From: Bradyrhizobium japonicum USDA 6
Lineage (GTDB): Bacteria > Pseudomonadota > Alphaproteobacteria > Rhizobiales > Xanthobacteraceae
Length of the DNA stretch: 64,000 bases
NCBI RefSeq assembly: GCF_000284375.1
Contig: NC_017249.1
Coordinates: forward strand, 4,876,001-4,940,000
Direction of reading: 5' to 3'
The position numbers and the translations under genes were made by a program. This document shows positions 12,053-20,629 of this stretch, piece after piece. The notes under the pieces are model-generated. The model saw only the letters and a list, made by a program, of their open reading frames with translations, made no database searches and was not told where the DNA came from. How positions within the stretch are numbered: the stretch's first letter is position 1; the number at the start of each line of letters is the position of its first letter.

Positions 12053-12457
12053 TCAGGCCGGAATGGTGGCGAAGGCGTCGATCTCGACGAGCAGCTGGTC
12101 CCAGGCCTGTGCGATTTCCGGCGACCATTCGTCGCCGAGGAGGTCGCGCAGCGCATCCCTGATGACGACGAAGAACGCGATGAACAGCTCGCGCGGAGTG
12201 CCGTAGCCATCGTGCGAGGCGACCTCGCAGGCGATCAGCCTGAAATGGCCCCGACGCTCACCGGCGAAGTCGAGGATCGCCTCGATCGTCAGCGCAAGCA
12301 TCGACCCCATCACCGGCTCGCTGCCCTGCGAGCGGAACATGGTCCGCGTTTCGGGATGCTGTTCGAACAGCCGTTGGTAAACGAGTGGCGTGAGATCCGC
12401 GCAACGCGAGGCTGCGAGTTCGAAGCTGTTTTCGATTGAATTAACGGGAGCGCTCAT
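12053..12457 (-). CDS. Globin-like haemoprotein
   Basis: A 134-residue single-domain globin-like protein: NSIENSFELAASRCADLTPLV and VYQRLFEQHPETRTMF match the A/B-helix region of bacterial globins, and the His in ACEVASHDGYG may be the proximal ligand. It ends with an Asp-rich C-terminal helix (DQLLVEIDAFATIPA). Expected role is binding of oxygen or nitric oxide. ATG codons at 12472, 12463 and 12457 are all possible starts; none has a good ribosome binding site. It is transcribed in the same direction as the ABC transporter but separated by 139 bases from the binding-protein gene. Confidence 0.65.
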   Translation of the reverse strand: MSAPVNSIENSFELAASRCADLTPLVYQRLFEQHPETRTMFRSQGSEPVMGSMLALTIEAILDFAGERRGHFRLIACEVASHDGYGTPRELFIAFFVVIRDALRDLLGDEWSPEIAQAWDQLLVEIDAFATIPA

Positions 12458-12478
12458 CGGCATCGAAGCCATGCGGGC

Positions 12479-12506
12479 AAAAAAGAGCGGGGCCCTGGCC
12501 CCGCTC
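12479..12506 (-). terminator. Rho-independent-type hairpin just upstream of the globin gene
   Basis: GAGCGGGG at 12485-12492 pairs perfectly with CCCCGCTC at 12499-12506 (ten pairs if the loop is closed). Read on the minus strand it is followed by six T residues (12484-12479). The hairpin therefore terminates minus-strand transcripts only a few bases before the globin start. It could end an upstream small RNA or work as a leader attenuator. Confidence 0.65.
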
Positions 12507-12731
12507 GAAAATTGTGTCGACCCTATTATCCCCGATTCTAAGATTTGCTCTTGATTGACGGGGCGACGCTGCGTTTTGCGCGCCAGGGGCTCCTCCCGAG
12601 ACTTGGACCACCAGACTTCGACCTCTCGGCCAGCCTGAGCAAGAGGGATGCTAGATCAACTTTTCTCACTTGTCATCATTTTCGGCAACGATTGTTCAAA
12701 ATTAGAGCAGCTGACGAAATGATCGGGCTGT

Positions 12732-12760
12732 TTGCCATGTAAGCATATGACAAATATAAG
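12732..12760 (+). promoter_or_regulatory. Strong sigma70-type promoter of the copper operon
   Basis: TTGCCA at 12732-12737, a 17-base spacer and TATAAG at 12755-12760 are close to the housekeeping consensus. Transcription would start near 12767, giving a leader of about 156 bases before the DUF2946 gene. No recognisable operator was seen. Confidence 0.6.
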
Positions 12761-12766
12761 AAATCT

Positions 12767-12910
12767 GTGGATAGGGAGGGTTGCCGGACTGCCTCAAATG
12801 CCGGACGTCCCAGCCCGTGGGGCGGCGGGACCACAGTTTTCGAGAACTTTGCGCCGGGCCAGGAAGCCCGTGGAACTGACCTCGACTCAGGTCTCGGCGA
12901 GGTGTTTAGT
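12767..12910 (+). promoter_or_regulatory. Highly structured 5' leader of the copper operon
   Basis: The leader can form several stems: CTGTG near the predicted start with CACAG at about 12830-12834; GTCCC with GGGAC, with an inner GCC/GGC extension; CGGGC with GCCCG around CAGGAA; and GACCT with AGGTC. Such density in a leader of about 150 bases hints at a structured RNA element, perhaps metal- or metabolite-responsive. It does not match a riboswitch consensus that I know, including cobalamin. Confidence 0.4.
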
Positions 12911-12922
12911 TTAGGCGAACGA

Positions 12923-13309
12923 ATGGTTCGGCGGATGCGCGCACGGCTGCAAAAATTCCTACCCCTGGTCCTGCTCGCTTTGGCGATGCAGGTGCTGGCG
13001 CCGATTGCCGCCTGTCTGGCGGCCGGTCAGGCCGTGGCCGATCCGTTGTCTGTCGGCGTCATCTGCCACAGCGCGAGCGAGCAGGGCGGTCTGAACGACC
13101 AGACCGGCGCGCCGACCGCACATGGCGCTGCGTGTGCGCTGTGTTGCCTGGCGCAGGCGGGCGCATCGCTCGATTCGCCGCCGCACGTTGCGCTCGCCAT
13201 TCCCTTCCGCCACGTCGCGCGCGTGGTGTGGCATGCGGCGGATGTATCCGCCGTCGCGATCCATAAGGGCACAAGCGCCCAGGCGCGCGCACCACCTCAT
13301 TTTTCCTGA
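12923..13309 (+). CDS. CutF-like DUF2946 copper-sensing leader protein
   Basis: A 128-residue exported protein: MVRRMRARLQKF, then a hydrophobic core and AxA-like site form a signal peptide. The mature part has the DUF2946 pattern AHGAACALCC (Cys 71, 74, 75; His 67) and ends ARAPPHFS. CutF of Rhodobacter capsulatus and CruR of Bordetella pertussis are small DUF2946 proteins whose nascent chain senses copper through Cys residues and uses a Pro-containing C-terminal stalling motif to control the next gene. This protein has all those features. Its stop codon is part of a stem-loop that covers the TonB receptor ribosome binding site. AGGCGA precedes the ATG at 12923; ATG 12935 is an alternative. 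It heads the copper operon. Confidence 0.78.
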   Translation: MVRRMRARLQKFLPLVLLALAMQVLAPIAACLAAGQAVADPLSVGVICHSASEQGGLNDQTGAPTAHGAACALCCLAQAGASLDSPPHVALAIPFRHVARVVWHAADVSAVAIHKGTSAQARAPPHFS

Positions 13310-13387
13310 CGACCCTCGTGATTGCCGCGGTCCGTCCGCTGGCGATCGATGCTGTCGAATGGCCGGAGAGAAAGCCGGCGTCAGGAA
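13303..13387 (+). promoter_or_regulatory. Stem-loop hiding the TonB-receptor Shine-Dalgarno sequence
   Basis: TTCCTGACG at 13303-13311 (last two codons region and stop of the DUF2946 gene) is perfectly complementary to CGTCAGGAA at 13379-13387. The 3' arm contains AGGAA, the ribosome binding site six bases before the ATG at 13394. A ribosome paused at the Pro-Pro codons (13292-13297) would cover the 5' arm and free the site. Smaller internal hairpins (GCCGG/CCGGC at 13362-13379) may compete. Confidence 0.72.
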
Positions 13388-13393
13388 TGCCCC

Positions 13394-15805
13394 ATGTTAC
13401 GTTGTCATGCCCGCCGTGGCGTGAGCGCCGTCGCGGTCCAGGCCGCGCTGCTCGCGTCGTCGAGCGGAGTCTTTGCCCAAAGTACGAACTCGGAGCTGCC
13501 GGCGGTGACAGTTGAGGCGCCGCAGACTGGCCGTGCCAAACCAGCCACCCGGCCCTCGCGGCCGCGATCCGCTTCGGCCGGCCGCGCGGCGAGGCCCGTT
13601 ACGCCGAGTGCGGGCGTCAGCGCATCGACCCCAAACCGGGCCGTGACGGCCAGCGCGGCGCGAGACGGTCTCAATCAGGCGCCAACCGGCCAGACCGAGA
13701 CGACCATCTATCGCAGCCAGTTCGACAACCGGCCGGCGGTTACCGTGGCCGACGTGCTGCGCGAGAGCCCCGGCATATCGGTGAAGCAGGGCAACGGACC
13801 CCGCGATATCGGCATCTCGATCCGCGGCTCCAACGCCCGCAACGGCTTCGGCATCCGCAATCTCGTTATCTTCGATGACGGCTTCCCGGTCACGCAACCG
13901 GACGGGCTGTCCCGCAGTGACCTGATCGATCCGCGGGCCTACAGTGCGATAGATGTGATCCGCGGCCCGTCGTCGGCGCTCTACGGCAACTATGCCACCG
14001 GCGGCGCGCTCAATTTCCGCACCCGCCCGGGCGGCTCGATCGATGGCGCCGAATATGGCGTCGATGGCGGGAGTTTCGGCTACCTCAACAATTATTTTAC
14101 CTACGGCAAGAAGGTCGGCAATTTCGAGGGCTCGCTGTTTGCGAGTGACGCCCGCGGCGACGGCTTCATCGGCAATAGCTGGTACAATACCCAAACGGTC
14201 AATTTTCTCGGCACGCTGCAGGCCACGCCTGATGATCGCTTTACCGTCAAGTTCATCAACAACAATCTTGATACCCGCCTTCCGGTCCGCTCCTCGCTGA
14301 ACCAGTTCTATCGAAACCCTTTCCAGCAGGGCTGCGCGACCGGGGCTACCGCCGCACCGGGATGCGCGACGGTTCTGCTCAATAATAACGGCTTCAACAC
14401 AGTCGCGGGGACCGACAGGGAAACGGCGCTGCAAGCAGGGCTTGGTCGCAACGACCGCCGGACCATCGTCGGCGGGCGATGGGAGCACGATTTCGACAAT
14501 ACGACGACATGGCGAAATCAGTTCGTTTTCGACGACCGCAACATCAGTCAGCCCACGGGTGGCACCAGCGCCATCGGCGACTTTCCATCGTACAATTACA
14601 TGAGCGACATCACCAAGCGCGGTGAAATCTTCGGGATGGATTCGACCACCTATTTCGGTGGCTTTTACAATACTCTGACGGCATCGAGCGACACGAGATT
14701 CGTGATGCCGGGTGGTAACGCGACGCTGGGCAGACTCCAGAGCAATACGTTCAGCGACACCTCGAATTACGGCGTGCGTGCGCGCGAGGAACTCAAGCTG
14801 ACGCCGCAACTGACCGCTGTTGCCGGGATCGGATGGGAAACCACCATTCTGAAGGGACTAAATACGGCATACACCTACACGGGAGCCGCGGGCATAACGA
14901 CGACGAATCTCACCGCGACTGACCGGCAATTTCAGAATACGGCTCCCGAACTGGCGCTGGTCTACAAATTGAACCCCGAGTGGCAGTTTCGCGGCCGCGT
15001 CGCTACGGGCTACGGAACGCCGCAGGTCACCAACCTGTTCATCGTTTCGGACGGCACAGCCGGCAATAACACCCAGCTCCAGACGCAAAAGAATCTCGGC
15101 TACGATCTTGGCTTCGATTGGACTCCAAACACCGCGCTCAAATTCAGTGCGACCGGCTTCTACGAGTTTTTCCGTAACGAACTGGTGAGCCAGGCGACAC
15201 AGGTGGCCGGCGTCAGCTTCATGTTCAACGCGCCACGATCCGAGCATCGCGGTGTCGAGCTTGCCGCTGACTGGAAGTTCCTTCCAGGCTGGCGATTCAC
15301 GGCGGCGTATACCTATCTCGATCAATTCTACACCGAATACACGGAAAACCTCAGAAGCCCCGGCGTCGGTGGAACGGTCTTCAGCTTCAATCGTGCGAGC
15401 AACAAGATTCCCGGAATCTCGCCGAACGAGTTAACCGCGCGACTTGGCTATGACGAGTTTTCGGGGTCGCTTGCCGGCCTCGGCGCGTTCGTCGAAGTGC
15501 AGTGGAAGGATTCCTTCTGGATGGACAACGCCAATCTCTTGAAGGCGCCCGGTTACGAACTGGTCAATCTCAACGTGCACTACAAGACGGACCTCCAGTC
15601 CGACCACTTCAAGTCACTGAACGTCTATTTTGAAGTCAGGAACGTGTTTGACCGGACCTATGTGGCTTCGGCGAACAATATTGCGAATACGGTGCAAGGC
15701 ACGGGCATCCAGGACGGAGCGATCGCTTTGGCGAATACGACCAATTCGATCTACGCCGGCTCGCCGCGCGCGTTCTTCGCCGGAATGAAGCTGGCGTTCA
15801 AATGA
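13394..15805 (+). CDS. TonB-dependent outer-membrane receptor, probably for copper
   Basis: An 803-residue receptor. A signal peptide (MLRCHARRGVSAVAVQAALL to SGVFAQ) is followed by a TonB-box-like LPAVTVEAP, a low-complexity Arg/Ala/Pro linker, a plug domain (ADVLRESPGISVKQG, ISIRGSNARNGFGIRN, VIRGPSSALYGNYATGGALN) and a barrel ending in a C-terminal FAGMKLAFK. It imports a substrate across the outer membrane with TonB energy. The operon contains only copper-related partners (PCuAC, YcnI, CopCD, DUF2946), so copper or a copper complex is the likely ligand. Translation is probably gated by the stem-loop at 13303-13387. Confidence 0.88.
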   Translation: MLRCHARRGVSAVAVQAALLASSSGVFAQSTNSELPAVTVEAPQTGRAKPATRPSRPRSASAGRAARPVTPSAGVSASTPNRAVTASAARDGLNQAPTGQTETTIYRSQFDNRPAVTVADVLRESPGISVKQGNGPRDIGISIRGSNARNGFGIRNLVIFDDGFPVTQPDGLSRSDLIDPRAYSAIDVIRGPSSALYGNYATGGALNFRTRPGGSIDGAEYGVDGGSFGYLNNYFTYGKKVGNFEGSLFASDARGDGFIGNSWYNTQTVNFLGTLQATPDDRFTVKFINNNLDTRLPVRSSLNQFYRNPFQQGCATGATAAPGCATVLLNNNGFNTVAGTDRETALQAGLGRNDRRTIVGGRWEHDFDNTTTWRNQFVFDDRNISQPTGGTSAIGDFPSYNYMSDITKRGEIFGMDSTTYFGGFYNTLTASSDTRFVMPGGNATLGRLQSNTFSDTSNYGVRAREELKLTPQLTAVAGIGWETTILKGLNTAYTYTGAAGITTTNLTATDRQFQNTAPELALVYKLNPEWQFRGRVATGYGTPQVTNLFIVSDGTAGNNTQLQTQKNLGYDLGFDWTPNTALKFSATGFYEFFRNELVSQATQVAGVSFMFNAPRSEHRGVELAADWKFLPGWRFTAAYTYLDQFYTEYTENLRSPGVGGTVFSFNRASNKIPGISPNELTARLGYDEFSGSLAGLGAFVEVQWKDSFWMDNANLLKAPGYELVNLNVHYKTDLQSDHFKSLNVYFEVRNVFDRTYVASANNIANTVQGTGIQDGAIALANTTNSIYAGSPRAFFAGMKLAFK

Positions 15806-15834: not shown

Positions 15835-17049
15835 ATGCTACGAATGAGCCTGCTCGCGACGCTCGTCCTTTTGCTTTGCCAAGACGCAGCGCATGCGCAA
15901 ATGAGCCATCATCAGCATGCCTCCGAAGCGGCGTGCGAGGAGCCGACATTGCGCTGCGCAACCAAGGTGACGCCCGCATTCGGACCGGATGGAACGCTGT
16001 GGCTCGTCTGGATGGCGGGCGGGCAAGTGTCGGTTGCGAGCTCGCCGGATGCGGGGCGGAGTTTCTCGACCCCCACTCAGGTCACGACGACGCGGCTGAA
16101 TCTCGACTGGGGCCCGGATGCCCGGCCAAAGATCGTGGTCGATCGCAAGGGTGGCATCGCGCTCGCATTCTCGATCTTCAGGGATGAGGCCTTCAACGGT
16201 CAGGTGCTCTACACGCGCTCGGCCGATGGCGGAAAGAGCTTTGCTGATCTGAAGCCGATCACCGCCAGCAACGAGAGCCAGCGTTTCGAGGCGCTGGCGC
16301 TCGATCAGGATGGAACGGTGTTTGCGGCGTGGCTGGACAAGCGCAATCGCGTTTTTGCGAAGGAGGCGGGACAGAAGTACGAGGGAGCGGGGCTGTTCTT
16401 CACCTCGTCCAGCGACGGCGGCACCACCTACCCAGAAGCAAAGCTGGCGCGCGAAGGCACCTGCGAATGCTGCCGGTTGGGACTGACATTCGCGGCGCCC
16501 GGGCGGCCGGCCGTGATCTTCAGAAACATTTTTGACGGCGGCGTACGTGACCACGCGGTCATGACCTTCGCCGACGTCTCGACGCCGGGTGAGATCCGTC
16601 GGGTCAGCAATGACGACTGGCAGATCAACGCCTGTCCGCATCACGGACCGAGCCTCACCGTTGCGCCGAACGGGACCTATCACGTCGCGTGGTACACGAA
16701 CGGCAAGGCGCGCAAGGGACTGTTCTACGCCCACTCGCGCGACGAAGGCCGCACCTTCTCCGCGCCCATGGCGCTGGGGCAGCCGGGCCGCAATCCGACG
16801 CGTCCTTACGTGCTCGCTTGCGCGGCGGGAACGGTGATGGTCTGGAAGGAGTTCGACGGCGAGAAGACCTCGGTCCAGATGATGATTTCCCGCGACGACG
16901 GCGAGAGCTGGTCGCCGCCGAAGACGATATCGAGCACGACCGACACATCCGATCATCCCTTGCTCGTTTCCAATGGCCAACAGGTCTATTTGTCATGGAT
17001 GACGAAAGCGGATGGCTATCGGCTCACAGCAATCGAGGACCAGCCATGA
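15835..17049 (+). CDS. Exported BNR/Asp-box propeller protein of the copper operon
   Basis: A 404-residue secreted protein with a signal peptide ending AHAQ. At least five Asp-box motifs mark a sialidase-type beta-propeller: SSPDAGRSF, RSADGGKSF, SSSDGGTTY, HSRDEGRTF and ISRDDGESW. No sialidase Arg triad is evident. Potential metal ligands are conspicuous: MSHHQHASEAACEE at the mature N-terminus, CECC near residue 210 and CPHH near residue 266. A periplasmic copper-binding or scaffold role is more likely than glycoside hydrolysis. AGGAGGAGG precedes ATG 15835. Its stop overlaps the next start (ATGA). Confidence 0.8.
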   Translation: MLRMSLLATLVLLLCQDAAHAQMSHHQHASEAACEEPTLRCATKVTPAFGPDGTLWLVWMAGGQVSVASSPDAGRSFSTPTQVTTTRLNLDWGPDARPKIVVDRKGGIALAFSIFRDEAFNGQVLYTRSADGGKSFADLKPITASNESQRFEALALDQDGTVFAAWLDKRNRVFAKEAGQKYEGAGLFFTSSSDGGTTYPEAKLAREGTCECCRLGLTFAAPGRPAVIFRNIFDGGVRDHAVMTFADVSTPGEIRRVSNDDWQINACPHHGPSLTVAPNGTYHVAWYTNGKARKGLFYAHSRDEGRTFSAPMALGQPGRNPTRPYVLACAAGTVMVWKEFDGEKTSVQMMISRDDGESWSPPKTISSTTDTSDHPLLVSNGQQVYLSWMTKADGYRLTAIEDQP

Positions 17050-17543
17050 GACGTCGATTTGCAGGCATTCTGGGTCTGGGTATACTGATCGCGTCAGCGG
17101 CTACGCCGGGAGCGGCGCCGGCTCTGAAACCGTTCGAGCGCGGCAGCTGGCAAGGCGTCCTCAGGGGGCATGCGGGCCGCCCGACGCTCGTGCATTTCTG
17201 GGGCGTGACCTGCGGGCCCTGCAAGGTCGAGCTGCCGTTGCTCGGGCAGTTTGCGAAGGACCATCCCGGGATCGACGTGGTCACGATCAGCGCCGATCTC
17301 GTGCCGAACCTGCCCGCGGCAACGCAGTCGATGCTTGACAAGGCGGGGCTGTCGTCGACCGAGAACTTCATCTTCAACGATGGTTTTGTCGAACGTTTGA
17401 GGTTCGAGATCGATCCCGCCTGGCAGGGCGACATTCCCCGGACCATGCTCATCTCCCGGGACGGGACAATCACGACGATCGAGGGCTCGGCCGAGATGGC
17501 CGATCTCGAAAAATGGTCGGGCCAACAGCTCGCCACACACTGA
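17046..17543 (+). CDS. Periplasmic TlpA-like thioredoxin
   Basis: A 165-residue thioredoxin-fold protein with an N-terminal signal (MRRRFAGILGLGILIASAA). The active site reads WGVTCGPCKVELP, a CxxC redox motif in the TlpA/ResA context, and the cis-Pro loop is DIPRTMLISRDG. TlpA-type proteins reduce cysteines of copper chaperones and of the CuA site of oxidases, so it may keep the Cys-containing partners of this operon reduced. The ATG overlaps the propeller stop, indicating translational coupling. PCuAC follows after 29 bases. Confidence 0.85.
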   Translation: MRRRFAGILGLGILIASAATPGAAPALKPFERGSWQGVLRGHAGRPTLVHFWGVTCGPCKVELPLLGQFAKDHPGIDVVTISADLVPNLPAATQSMLDKAGLSSTENFIFNDGFVERLRFEIDPAWQGDIPRTMLISRDGTITTIEGSAEMADLEKWSGQQLATH

Positions 17544-17572: not shown

Positions 17573-18094
17573 ATGAAGACCATGTTAAAAGATGTGCTGC
17601 TCGCTGCGTTCGCTCTCATGCTCTGCGCAGCACCAGCGGCGGCCGAGGACGTCAAGGCCGGCGATCTCGTCATCTCGCAGGCCTGGAGCCGGGCGACGCC
17701 CGGTGGCGCCAAGGTGGCCGGCGGTTATCTCACCATCGAGAACAAGGGGACAACGGCGGACAGGCTGGTCAGCGTTTCCGCCGACATCGCGGGGAAGACC
17801 GAGGTCCATGAGATGGCGATGGACAACGGTGTGATGAAGATGCGTCCGCTCGATAAGGGGCTTGTGATCGACGCCGGCAAGACGGTGAAGCTCGCGCCCG
17901 GCGGCAATCATCTGATGCTCCAGGAGCTGAAGGGTCCGTTCAAGCAGGGTGACAAGGTCCCGGTGACGCTGGAGTTCGAGAAGGCCGGCAAGGTCGCCGT
18001 CTCCCTCGACGTCCAGGGCGTCGGCGCGCAGGCGCCCGGCGACGGCGGGCACATGATGAAGAAAATGCCGGATCATTCGGGAATGAAGATGTGA
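17573..18094 (+). CDS. PCuAC-type periplasmic copper chaperone
   Basis: A 173-residue exported protein with signal ending APAAAE. It shows the copper motif of the PCuAC family (DUF461, PF04314): His79 in VHEM, Met90 ten residues on, and His113-Leu-Met115 after 22 residues. PCuAC binds Cu(I) and passes it to cytochrome oxidase assembly factors. The C-terminus adds a His/Met-rich tail (HMMKKMPDHSGMKM), a second likely copper site. Its stop shares bases with the next start (TGATG). Confidence 0.9.
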   Translation: MKTMLKDVLLAAFALMLCAAPAAAEDVKAGDLVISQAWSRATPGGAKVAGGYLTIENKGTTADRLVSVSADIAGKTEVHEMAMDNGVMKMRPLDKGLVIDAGKTVKLAPGGNHLMLQELKGPFKQGDKVPVTLEFEKAGKVAVSLDVQGVGAQAPGDGGHMMKKMPDHSGMKM

Positions 18095-18528
18095 TGAAAC
18101 AGATCAAGTCTCCGATGACCTCGCGTCGATCCCTCACAGGCCTTGTGCTCGCGATGGCTGCGTTGCTGTCGGTTGCCGCGACACCGGTTGCGGCGGCGAC
18201 GGACGACGACAGCTTCTTCACGCATCTGCACACCGAGAAGGCCATGGCCAATGTCGCGGTCTCGCCGGGCCGCGCCGGCCCGGTCGAGATCGCCATCCAG
18301 CTCGAAACCACGGACGAGACGCCGCTCGCGGCGAGAGCCGTGTCGGTGACGCTCGTGGACACGCAGTCCGGCCGGAAGCTCGCGCCGGTCGAGGCTTCGC
18401 GCGACGGCGAGGACAGCTGGCACGTGAAGGTCGCGCAATTGACGCCCGGACGCTGGATGCTGGGTCTCGGAATTTCGATCTCCGAGGCCGATCATGTCAG
18501 CGTGGAATCGCCGATCCTGATTAAATGA
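18094..18528 (+). CDS. YtkA-like exported protein
   Basis: A 144-residue secreted protein with a Sec signal (SRRSLTGLVLAMAALL). The mature domain (HLHTEKAMANVAVSPGRAG to the C-terminus) is a beta-sandwich of the YtkA/FixH-like type. It is clearly related to the last 100 residues of the CopC-CopD fusion in the same operon, which contains IHIHSDKAMFQVLVSPGKAG, so one arose by duplication. The conserved HxHxxKAM motif could bind copper. GTG 18091 is an alternative start; ATG 18094 overlaps the preceding stop. Confidence 0.72.
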   Translation: MKQIKSPMTSRRSLTGLVLAMAALLSVAATPVAAATDDDSFFTHLHTEKAMANVAVSPGRAGPVEIAIQLETTDETPLAARAVSVTLVDTQSGRKLAPVEASRDGEDSWHVKVAQLTPGRWMLGLGISISEADHVSVESPILIK

Positions 18529-18548: not shown

Positions 18549-19067
18549 ATGTCGAAGAAATCCTGCCTGTTCCTGATCGCCGCGCTGGCCGCGTCGCCGG
18601 CATCGGCGCATATCACGCTCGAGACCAAGCAGGCGACGGTTGGTTCCTACTACAAGGCCGTCTTCGCCGTGCCGCACGGCTGCGCGGGTTCGCCCACGGT
18701 GAAGATCAGGGTGCAGATTCCGGAAGGCGTGATTGCGGTGAAGCCGATGCCAAAGGCGGGCTGGAGCGTCGATGTCGTCGAAGGCAAGTACGCCAATGAA
18801 TACGACTATCACGGCAACAAGCTTGGCTCCGGCGTCAGGGAGGTGGCCTGGTCCGGCGGCAAGCTGCCGGATCACAACTACGACGAGTTCGTCATCAGCA
18901 GCTTCCTGACCAACAGCCTGAAGCCGGACACGACGCTGTATTTCCCTGTCGTCCAGGAGTGCGAGACCGGCGTCAGCCGCTGGATCGAGATCCCGGCGGA
19001 CGGGGCGGGGCATTCGCACGAGGGCAAGTCGCCGGCGCCGGGCGTGAAGCTCCTGTCAAAGCCCTGA
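18549..19067 (+). CDS. YcnI-like DUF1775 copper-binding protein
   Basis: A 172-residue exported protein. Signal cleavage after ASPASA leaves a mature N-terminal His (HITLETKQATVGSYYKAVFAV), which is the copper-ligating residue in the YcnI family (DUF1775). The conserved HGCAGSPTVKIRVQIPEG segment and a tryptophan in KAGWSVDV also match. YcnI proteins act with CopC/CopD-type YcnJ in copper acquisition. The stop overlaps the CopCD start as TGATG, and the two families are often neighbours. Confidence 0.88.
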   Translation: MSKKSCLFLIAALAASPASAHITLETKQATVGSYYKAVFAVPHGCAGSPTVKIRVQIPEGVIAVKPMPKAGWSVDVVEGKYANEYDYHGNKLGSGVREVAWSGGKLPDHNYDEFVISSFLTNSLKPDTTLYFPVVQECETGVSRWIEIPADGAGHSHEGKSPAPGVKLLSKP

Positions 19068-20629
19068 TGCGCCTGCTCGCCGCGCTCGCGACGCTCCTCT
19101 GCGTTGTCGGCTTCGCGACCGGCGCGTCTGCGCATGCGGCGCTGGTCGCGGTCGAGCCGGCGAGCGGCAGCATGCTTGCGAGCGCGCCGAAGGCGGTGGA
19201 GTTGCGCTTCAACGAGGCGGTGACGCCGGGCGCGATCCAATTGATCGATGGCGCGGGCAGGGCGCGGGACGATGCGCGCGTCAGCGCGTCGGGCGAAACG
19301 ATCTCGGTCGCGATGCCGCCAGACCTGCCGCAGGGCACTGCGGTCGTCAGCTATCGCGTGATCTCGCAGGACGGCCATCCCGTCGCGGGATCGGTGATCT
19401 TCTCAATCGGCATGCCGACGGGGACGCAACCTCCCGCCAATGCGGATCGCGGGTTGAGCGCGCTGATCTGGCTGGCGCGGGTCGGTCTGTATCTTGGGTT
19501 GTTCGTCGGTGTCGGAGGCGTGTTCTTTGCGCGCTGGGTTGCGTGGTCGACGACGGGCATGACCGTTCCACGCGTAGCGCTCGCCATCGGCATTCCGAGC
19601 GCCACTGCGTCCGTTGGCGCGTTGGGCCTCGATCTCCTCGGGCTGCCGCCGGCGGCTCTCGCGACGGCTGCCCCGTGGAAGGTCGCGTTCGCGACCAGCG
19701 CCGGCCCCGCGCTGCTGGTTGCGATTGCCGCGATGCTGCTCGCGTTGATGGCGCTGCGCAGCGGATGGTATGCGCGCGCTCTCGCGATCATCGCGCTGGT
19801 CGGCGTCGGTCTGTCGCTTGCCATGACCGGGCACGCCGCGACGGCCCCGCCAGAGGCGTTGACCCGGCCGGCGATCTTTCTGCACGGCCTCGGCGTCACC
19901 ATCTGGATCGGTGCTCTCGCGCCGCTGGTCGCGCTGGTGTCGAAGCCGACGACTGCGACGCTCCCCGTCGTGAACCGCTTTTCCCGCATCGCTGCGCTGG
20001 CGGTCGGCGTGCTGGCCTTGACCGGCCTCGCGCTCGCGATCGTTCAGCTCGAAAAGCCGGTCGCGCTGGTCGAGACCCGCTACGGACTCATTCTCTCGAT
20101 CAAGCTTGCATTGGTCACGGGATTGCTGGCGCTCGCCGCGCTCAATCGGTTCAGGCTTACACCGGCCCTGGCCCGGGACGAGAGTGGGACGCCCGCGCTC
20201 AAGCGCTCGATCCTGCTGGAGGGCGCGATCGCACTCGCCATCCTTGCCGTCGTCGCCGGCTGGCGCTTCACCCCGCCACCGCGGACGATCATTCCCGAGA
20301 CGCCTTTGGCGATCCACATCCACAGCGACAAGGCGATGTTCCAGGTTCTAGTCTCGCCGGGCAAGGCCGGGCTCGACGATTTCGTGCTCCAGCTCATGAC
20401 CGGCGAGGCCACGCCGCTGATCGCGAAGGAGGTGACGCTGACCCTGAGCCTGCCGGAGCGCGGCATCGAGCCGATGGAGCGGGGCGCCTCGCTTGGGCCG
20501 GACGGCTACTGGCACGTGCGCAAGGTCGAGCTTCCGTTTGCGGGGCGGTGGCATGTGCGGATCGACGCGCTGGTGACCGATTTCGAGAAGGTCACGCTGG
20601 AGGACGAGCTCGATCTGGGGCTGCCTTAA
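19067..20629 (+). CDS. CopC-CopD fusion copper transporter with YtkA-like tail
   Basis: A 520-residue protein in three parts. Residues 1-22 are a signal peptide; the CopC domain starts with mature His (HAALVAVEPASGSML, then VSYRVISQDGHPVAGS), consistent with a histidine-type copper site. Residues about 140-405 form the CopD part with roughly eight membrane spans. Residues about 412-520 are a periplasmic YtkA-like domain similar to the small protein at 18094. The arrangement is like YcnJ and fits copper uptake through the inner membrane. It is the last gene of the operon before the hairpin at 20688. Confidence 0.85.
   Translation: MRLLAALATLLCVVGFATGASAHAALVAVEPASGSMLASAPKAVELRFNEAVTPGAIQLIDGAGRARDDARVSASGETISVAMPPDLPQGTAVVSYRVISQDGHPVAGSVIFSIGMPTGTQPPANADRGLSALIWLARVGLYLGLFVGVGGVFFARWVAWSTTGMTVPRVALAIGIPSATASVGALGLDLLGLPPAALATAAPWKVAFATSAGPALLVAIAAMLLALMALRSGWYARALAIIALVGVGLSLAMTGHAATAPPEALTRPAIFLHGLGVTIWIGALAPLVALVSKPTTATLPVVNRFSRIAALAVGVLALTGLALAIVQLEKPVALVETRYGLILSIKLALVTGLLALAALNRFRLTPALARDESGTPALKRSILLEGAIALAILAVVAGWRFTPPPRTIIPETPLAIHIHSDKAMFQVLVSPGKAGLDDFVLQLMTGEATPLIAKEVTLTLSLPERGIEPMERGASLGPDGYWHVRKVELPFAGRWHVRIDALVTDFEKVTLEDELDLGLP

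Follow-up and report, generated by a model that had tools for sequence, protein, structure and literature searches.

In Bradyrhizobium japonicum USDA 6, a short leader gene precedes the gene of a TonB-dependent receptor, and the two appear to form a copper-responsive translation switch. They lie in the window, the whole stretch of 64,000 nucleotides (nt) analysed (NC_017249.1, positions 4,876,001 to 4,940,000; genome size 9.2 Mb), and positions below are those of the window. The locus is quite probably best explained as a copper leader peptide of the CruR type with an output of the SecM type, the opening of a hidden Shine-Dalgarno (SD) sequence. Sequence comparison shows the position of an RNA arm that pairs with the SD sequence, the pairing itself, its covariation between genera, and its register to the RAPP motif at the end of the leader. 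Stalling at RAPP, and relief of the stall by copper through a CXXC motif, would hold at this locus by analogy with CruR. All support is computational. The parts concerned are as follows.

12923..13309, + strand: cruR-like leader open reading frame (ORF), DUF2946, 128 residues (Pfam PF11162)
13133..13147, + strand: CALCC, candidate copper site with CXXC (leader residues 71-75; based on the CXXC spacing in the family and in CruR)
13286..13297, + strand: RAPP arrest motif (from sequence; stall register taken from the CruR toeprint, PMC12992588)
13303..13311, + strand: 5' arm of the SD-hiding stem, inside the last leader codons and stop (sequence, alignment)
13379..13387, + strand: 3' arm of the stem, holding the SD sequence AGGAA at 13383-13387 (sequence, alignment)
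13394..15805, + strand: TonB-dependent receptor, presumed target of the control (Pfam)

The leader protein matches DUF2946 with an E value of 2.3e-12 (48.1 bits against a cut-off of 23.7). Its N terminus, a basic stretch followed by a hydrophobic one, resembles a Sec signal as read from the sequence, and the protein is probably exported. The CALC codons occupy 13133-13144, with a third Cys directly after, and the CXXC sits 47 residues ahead of RAPP. The C terminus reads Q-A-R-A-P-P-H-F-S-stop, which places RAPP three codons ahead of the stop and its Pro-Pro codons at 13292-13297. Thus the DUF2946 leader with CALCC and a C-terminal ARAPP, proposed in a first-pass annotation of the window, is borne out. 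By analogy with CruR, the predicted stall has codon 13292-13294 in the P site and 13295-13297 in the A site.

The receptor ATG lies at 13394-13396, and 84 nt separate leader from receptor. At the end of the leader, TTCCTGACG (13303-13311) and CGTCAGGAA (13379-13387) are perfect reverse complements, and the pairing covers the AGGAA ribosome-binding site. The first-pass annotation described a perfect 9-bp stem; the two arms are indeed fully complementary, but the minimum-free-energy fold gives up the ninth pair (13311-13379) for small adjacent pairings, leaving 8 bp. On a count that starts at the first base of RAPP's P-site codon, the 5' arm occupies +12 to +20, within reach of a stalled ribosome. 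A search of 12480-13700 against Rfam at the gathering threshold gave no match.

Conservation of the stem can be followed in 79 close loci, 78 of them labelled Bradyrhizobium and one (L023) labelled Frankia. In 75 of these an open frame of more than 600 residues stands behind the leader in the receptor position; with the window they make up 76 rows. At the other four (L054, L058, L076 and L078) the leader precedes a different gene, then CopC-/CopD-like genes, and the tails are without the arm. L054 (5001-8297) and L058 (5001-8334) carry two RAPP/RGPP leaders in tandem: the first, without a Ser-stop arm, stands ahead of a HEIVGNRFFP-type protein and CopC/CopD-like genes, and the second ends in Phe-Ser-stop.

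Every one of the 76 rows has RAPP or RGPP three codons from the stop and, at an identical place, TTCCTGA or a one-base variant, with the arm starting 11 bases past the first base of the P-site codon. Codon choice is strongly biased here. Ser-stop is written TCC-TGA in 75 rows; the remaining one (L073) has TCT-TGA and retains the pairing as G-U. Among Ser codons of the receptor genes at those loci, TCC accounts for 14% and TCT for 4%. The residue ahead of Ser-stop is variable (F, I, L, S, P or V), and its codon ends in T in 70 of 76 rows. On the leader-gene tree this residue changes 19 times and the third-base T six times. TTT is used for 44 of 48 Phe, against 20% in the receptor genes, and ATT for 17 of 17 Ile, against 18%.

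The pair just past the stop is C-G in 66 rows, U-A in seven and C-A in three. Four independent row pairs differ at this place, and the partner follows in 3.4 of them on average and never opposes, which is too few for a sign test. The three C-A mismatches belong to L057, L069 and L072, perhaps mosaics of two intergenic subtypes.

In an alignment of 75 rows (L071 was left out for Ns), 98.5% of 600 pair cells are standard, a share that drops to 20-62% once the partner is shifted by 1-3 columns. Within the genus, as read from these rows, the case for the stem is one of conservation and codon choice, not of covariation. RNAalifold keeps only seven stem pairs from the alignment, and the inner hairpins do not align across intergenic subtypes. 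In the window, the predicted fold places these hairpins as follows.

13319..13348, + strand: hairpin within the loop of the stem
13362..13379, + strand: hairpin GCCGG/CCGGC directly ahead of the SD arm

The inner hairpins (13319-13379) may shorten the path between the stem arms. Repeats similar to the GCCGG/CCGGC hairpin are visible in many of the aligned rows, and hairpin-like repeats of other sequence in other intergenic subtypes.

Evidence from beyond the genus is provided by two samples. Among 297 genomes of the order, 116 had a match, and 110 loci, a part of the matches listed, were used (including L002, described below); in a sample of 397 genomes of the phylum, 135 matched and 89 loci from outside the order, likewise a part of the matches listed, were used. 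Six order loci were dropped for lack of RAPP or RGPP near the end, lack of a downstream ORF, or a start less than 20 nt away, and 12 outside loci for lack of RAPP or RGPP. The 104 and 77 loci kept form a combined set of 181 leader loci from 85 genera of Pseudomonadota. Start codons were predicted as the first ATG with an SD-like sequence, a rule that misplaces some starts (L082, L112), and such misplacement is expected to weaken the stem signal.

RAPP or RGPP lies at most nine residues from the end in 105 of the 110 order loci. CXXC stands 43-49 residues ahead of RAPP in 157 of the 181 loci; 22 have none and two have it far off (the CXXC nearest to 45 was taken).

In the 104 order loci, the 27 bases past the P-site codon pair with their own SD region at a mean of -11.8 kcal/mol and with swapped SD regions at -9.4 kcal/mol, an advantage matched by none of 20000 permutations. 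With one locus per genus (42 genera) the z score is -5.9 to -8.3 over eight draws. It is -6.3 to -7.0 (four draws) without the window's genus and -2.6 to -5.1 (eight draws) with one locus per family (23 families).

The place of the pairing can be found by sliding a 15-base frame along the RNA, with the offset counted from the start of the RAPP P-site codon. The order profile (42 genera) peaks at +6 with z -7.9; on either side, at offsets of -150 to -9 and +15 to +57, z ranges from -1.9 to +1.1. Outside the order (77 loci, 43 genera) z is -7.4 at +6 and -7.3 at +3, and away from the peak, at offsets of -120 to -9 and +15 to +45, it ranges from -2.2 to +1.4. The signal at +6 is present whether the downstream gene encodes a TonB receptor (-7.1, 73 loci), a PepSY protein (-7.8, 28 loci) or anything else (-6.3, 80 loci).

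By rank score, clearly matched stems are found at 71 of 181 loci in 46 of 85 genera. With one locus per genus, 42% are clearly matched, versus 7.9% (at most 16.5%) under permutation. Of the 71 matched loci, 56 have a longest helix that starts 0 to 17 bases past the point where the P-site codon begins. Some of these stems share no sequence with that of the window, for instance UCCUCGUCUGA/UCAGACGAGGA in L143 and GCAUUUCCAC/GUGGAAAUGU in L215. Because matching RNA arms stand at the same place in many other bacteria, the locus looks like a conserved switch rather than a peculiarity of one genome. The idea that a paused ribosome opens the receptor's start site, put forward in the first-pass annotation, gains support from this conservation and covariation far beyond Bradyrhizobium.

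The leading edge of a stalled ribosome lies about 15 nt ahead, which for a P site at 13292-13294 is about 13306-13307. On this textbook footprint, the modelled edge falls just where the SD pairing (TTCCT, 13303-13307) stops. When the energy needed to open the SD sequence is modelled with a ribosome footprint of 31 nt, the value for the window falls from 7.97 kcal/mol without a ribosome to 1.25 kcal/mol with one at RAPP. A ribosome 12-60 nt upstream leaves it at 6.9-7.8 kcal/mol, and one at the codons after RAPP gives 2.2-3.1 kcal/mol. In the 25 of 75 close loci modelled (window included), the mean falls from 7.18 to 2.31 kcal/mol, with a drop of at least 1 in 24. For 81 genus representatives, in which less than 200 nt separate the start from the P-site codon, the mean drops from 7.2 kcal/mol to 4.9 kcal/mol, by at least 1 in 49.

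The switch would then work as follows. The leader is translated and probably exported. When copper is scarce, which would be the default, the ribosome would stall when codon 13292-13294, for the first Pro of Pro-Pro, occupies the P site and the codon for the second Pro occupies the A site. The leading edge of the ribosome would reach the end of the SD pairing and free AGGAA, and the receptor would be translated. Copper bound to the CXXC of the nascent chain would relieve the stall; the ribosome would leave, the stem re-form and the receptor be turned off. The copper half of this scheme, in which low copper means on, leans on CruR and on a published remark about B. japonicum.

There is a somewhat better than even chance that RAPP DUF2946 leaders across Pseudomonadota share one output and are metal-gated counterparts of SecM, each with an SD-hiding stem whose 5' arm lies about 6-20 nt past the P-site codon; Rho termination in B. 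pertussis would then be a local addition or an alternative. Such a shared output would span TonB receptors, PepSY proteins, copper chaperones and others.

A number of observations count against the proposed switch, and they are given here together with the alternative explanations. The published output of CruR is Rho termination (PMC9426467), and the same may apply to the window, with a stalled ribosome that blocks Rho and a stem that is incidental or secondary. This mechanism has the CruR precedent and is compatible with SD masking alongside it. It is nevertheless unlikely, since it leaves the codon choice and the SD-pairing arm at a fixed place past RAPP unexplained. The intergenic region measures 84 nt and not 162, and the excess of C over G in leader and intergenic region is modest (C exceeds G by at most 13 in 60 or 100 nt). 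In over half of the genera no clearly matched stem is found by rank score, and these may use Rho or something else. The longest helix falls outside 0 to +17 in 15 of the 71 matched loci.

Alternately, copper could promote the stall and turn the receptor on, as with CutF, whose copper response is opposite to that of the CruR type (PMC9973294). The first-pass annotation lumped CutF and CruR together, which does not hold: the window resembles CruR in motif and target gene, and CutF and SecM in output. CutF polarity draws on the SD-hiding stem that CutF likewise has, and on CALCC, which holds both CXXC and CXXXC, the latter being the spacing given for CutF. In addition, the B. japonicum operon, whose PcuA is listed as PCuAC-like, is called copper-inducible (PMC6696091), in conflict with a description in which copper starvation induces the B. 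japonicum operon that has a cruR homolog at its head (PMC9426467). This description itself speaks against CutF polarity, as do the CruR-like RAPP and spacing and the nature of the target, which is no detoxifying oxidase but a receptor whose operon includes copper chaperone genes. On balance CutF polarity is quite improbable.

Ordinary translational coupling, in which any ribosome at the leader stop opens the stem and no regulated stall is involved, can be examined by anchoring the arm either to RAPP or to the stop codon. In favour of coupling, the stop codon lies within the 5' arm in the window's genus, and with RAPP one or two codons from the stop (36 loci) the anchors are equal (RAPP -4.8, stop -4.9). 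In 46 loci from 31 genera RAPP lies farther off, 4-10 codons before the stop, and here the RAPP anchor gives a higher and sharper peak, -7.0 at +6 with a sharp fall after +12. The stop anchor still gives -6.1 in these loci, with its peak six bases farther upstream of the stop than in loci where RAPP is three codons away. At five or more codons (28 loci) the values are -4.9 and -4.7. The arm would thus track RAPP somewhat better than the stop codon, and the test leans to the stall without being clear-cut. Since RAPP or RGPP is also kept near the end of nearly all order leaders, as counted above, coupling without a stall is highly improbable.

The modelling is not uniformly favourable either: the gain in SD opening is below 1 kcal/mol in 32 of the 81 genus representatives, and in five of the 81 opening the SD sequence with the ribosome at RAPP costs at least 1 kcal/mol more than with one standing 30 nt upstream. 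The first-pass annotation had also proposed looking for compensatory changes at Bradyrhizobium junctions. The conservation it expected is there, in arm and pairs alike, but covariation is no better than in shuffles: both-sided change occurs at one pair only, a level often reached by shuffles, and the covariation score of 0.048 is below the 0.125 obtained with the partner slid by -3. The fold is of ordinary stability, with z -0.48 for 13280-13420 and 0.03 for 13307-13420; because z is only -0.48, stability alone is no support for the stem, and it was rejected as evidence. Chance complementarity or shared base composition, to which this ordinary stability and the z of -3.3 reached by 61 ordinary gene junctions used as control (41 genera; range -3.3 to -0.6) at an offset other than +6 might point, can practically be dismissed, since the two separate samples peak at an identical offset, own SD regions were tested against swapped ones, and the control stands at -0.6 at +6.

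The leader heads a set of genes on the same strand that is related to copper, with a TonB receptor, PCuAC, DUF1775 and CopCD; that these form an operon is read from gene order. The genes behind the receptor are listed below.

15835..17049, + strand: BNR-repeat protein (Pfam; start codon approximate)
17055..17543, + strand: thioredoxin-like protein (Pfam; start approximate)
17573..18094, + strand: PCu(A)C copper chaperone (Pfam, E 1.4e-42)
18091..18528, + strand: protein of 145 residues without a match in the Pfam search
18549..19067, + strand: DUF1775 (YcnI-like) protein (Pfam, E 3.4e-47)
19058..20629, + strand: CopC-CopD fusion (Pfam)

The BNR-repeat protein has a CECC patch, and a relative of it stands behind the receptor in 37 of 76 close loci. 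Pfam identifies the plug (E 3.2e-17) and the barrel (E 6.1e-39) of the receptor, whose closest solved chains by sequence are YncD/PqqU, a pyrroloquinoline quinone transporter, followed by CntO and FoxA. A search of NCBIfam gave no match for the leader and none above cut-off for the receptor. Upstream of the leader, a globin-domain protein is encoded on the opposite strand (12053-12472), and a promoter and terminator scan of 12480-13420 found none on the + strand.

The leader protein is 96% identical in B. liaoningense SZCCT0399, Bradyrhizobium sp. Arg816 and B. barranii, the closest among the 79 loci taken. The window's own genome has a second DUF2946 leader about 2.7 Mb away (L002, contig 1, 7599651-7600013), with the tail QPRAPPAS, 147 nt ahead of another long ORF. 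Its stem is built differently: TCCTGA-TTCC is able to pair with GGAATCAGGA around a bulged base.

The published models for this one family differ, with Rho termination for CruR and stem opening for CutF, and how other members act is left open (PMC9973294). A register rule tied to the stall codon offers a concrete test in dozens of genera and a prediction of the genes under control. Changes can be made in the stem that leave the protein almost or entirely as it is, so sensing and output are separable. If the proposed switch is true, rhizobial copper supply is tied to a translation switch.

Neither the family nor its motif is new, and the association with receptors and, for CutF, the idea of a stem are likewise known; the register rule and its breadth seem to be new. 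No comparison of these stems between species, and no stated register to RAPP, was found in the open-licence literature. Control of this sort should be widespread among DUF2946 proteins, according to a 2023 review (PMC10502375), and RAPP/RGPP leaders are enriched ahead of TonB-receptor, YcnI, PCu(A)C and PepSY genes (PMC12992588).

Among the known systems nearest to this one is CruR (BP2923) of Bordetella pertussis, a DUF2946 leader in cruR-bfrG(crtA)-bp2921, before a TonB receptor, with CXXC and RAPP 45 residues apart. Its authors propose that copper relieves the stall through CXXC, after which Rho terminates transcription (PMC9426467). The arrest has been toeprinted in vitro, with RAPP residues 3 and 4 in the P and A sites (PMC12992588). 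Mutations of the two prolines are reported with different effects: P120A+P121A raises reporter expression (PMC13038864), whereas P141A+P142A abolishes bfrG expression (PMC9426467), and the residue numbers differ. With these papers, and the published remark on a B. japonicum cruR homolog, the first-pass description of a barely described class was overstated. The leader of the window shares with CruR the DUF2946 domain, the CXXC, a RAPP three residues from the C terminus, a spacing of about 45-47 and a place before a TonB receptor in a copper operon. It differs in that CruR has a Rho output and an intergenic region of 162 nt, whereas the window has an SD-hiding stem past RAPP and 84 nt.

CutF of Rhodobacter capsulatus belongs to cutFOG, where a stem-loop hides the SD sequence of cutO and copper turns cutO on; its authors raise the question of stem unfolding by other members and note that most intergenic regions are shorter than 100 nt (PMC9973294). 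It is an exported DUF2946 leader, as that of the window probably is, with a stem-loop that hides the SD sequence of the next gene, as sequence and modelling suggest for the window. In the excerpt available, CutF is described with a proline-rich tail, RAPP is not named and the stall is not seen directly. Its target is the multicopper oxidase CutO, turned on by copper, whereas the next gene in the window is a TonB receptor.

In SecM and a related leader, SD-hiding stems are opened on stalling (PMC10987492). The likeness to SecM-secA, MifM and VemP lies in a C-terminal arrest that opens a stem hiding a downstream SD sequence. These systems differ in that they sense protein export or insertion, not metal.

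Finally, the locus resembles pcuABCDE of Bradyrhizobium japonicum, which Serventi reportedly described in 2012. The likeness is one of gene order, cruR-TonB-PCuAC-YcnI-CopCD, found in 15 of 76 close loci over the 5 kb examined; PcuD is a YcnI homolog (PMC8424229). The window differs from pcuABCDE in having BNR and thioredoxin genes between receptor and PCuAC.

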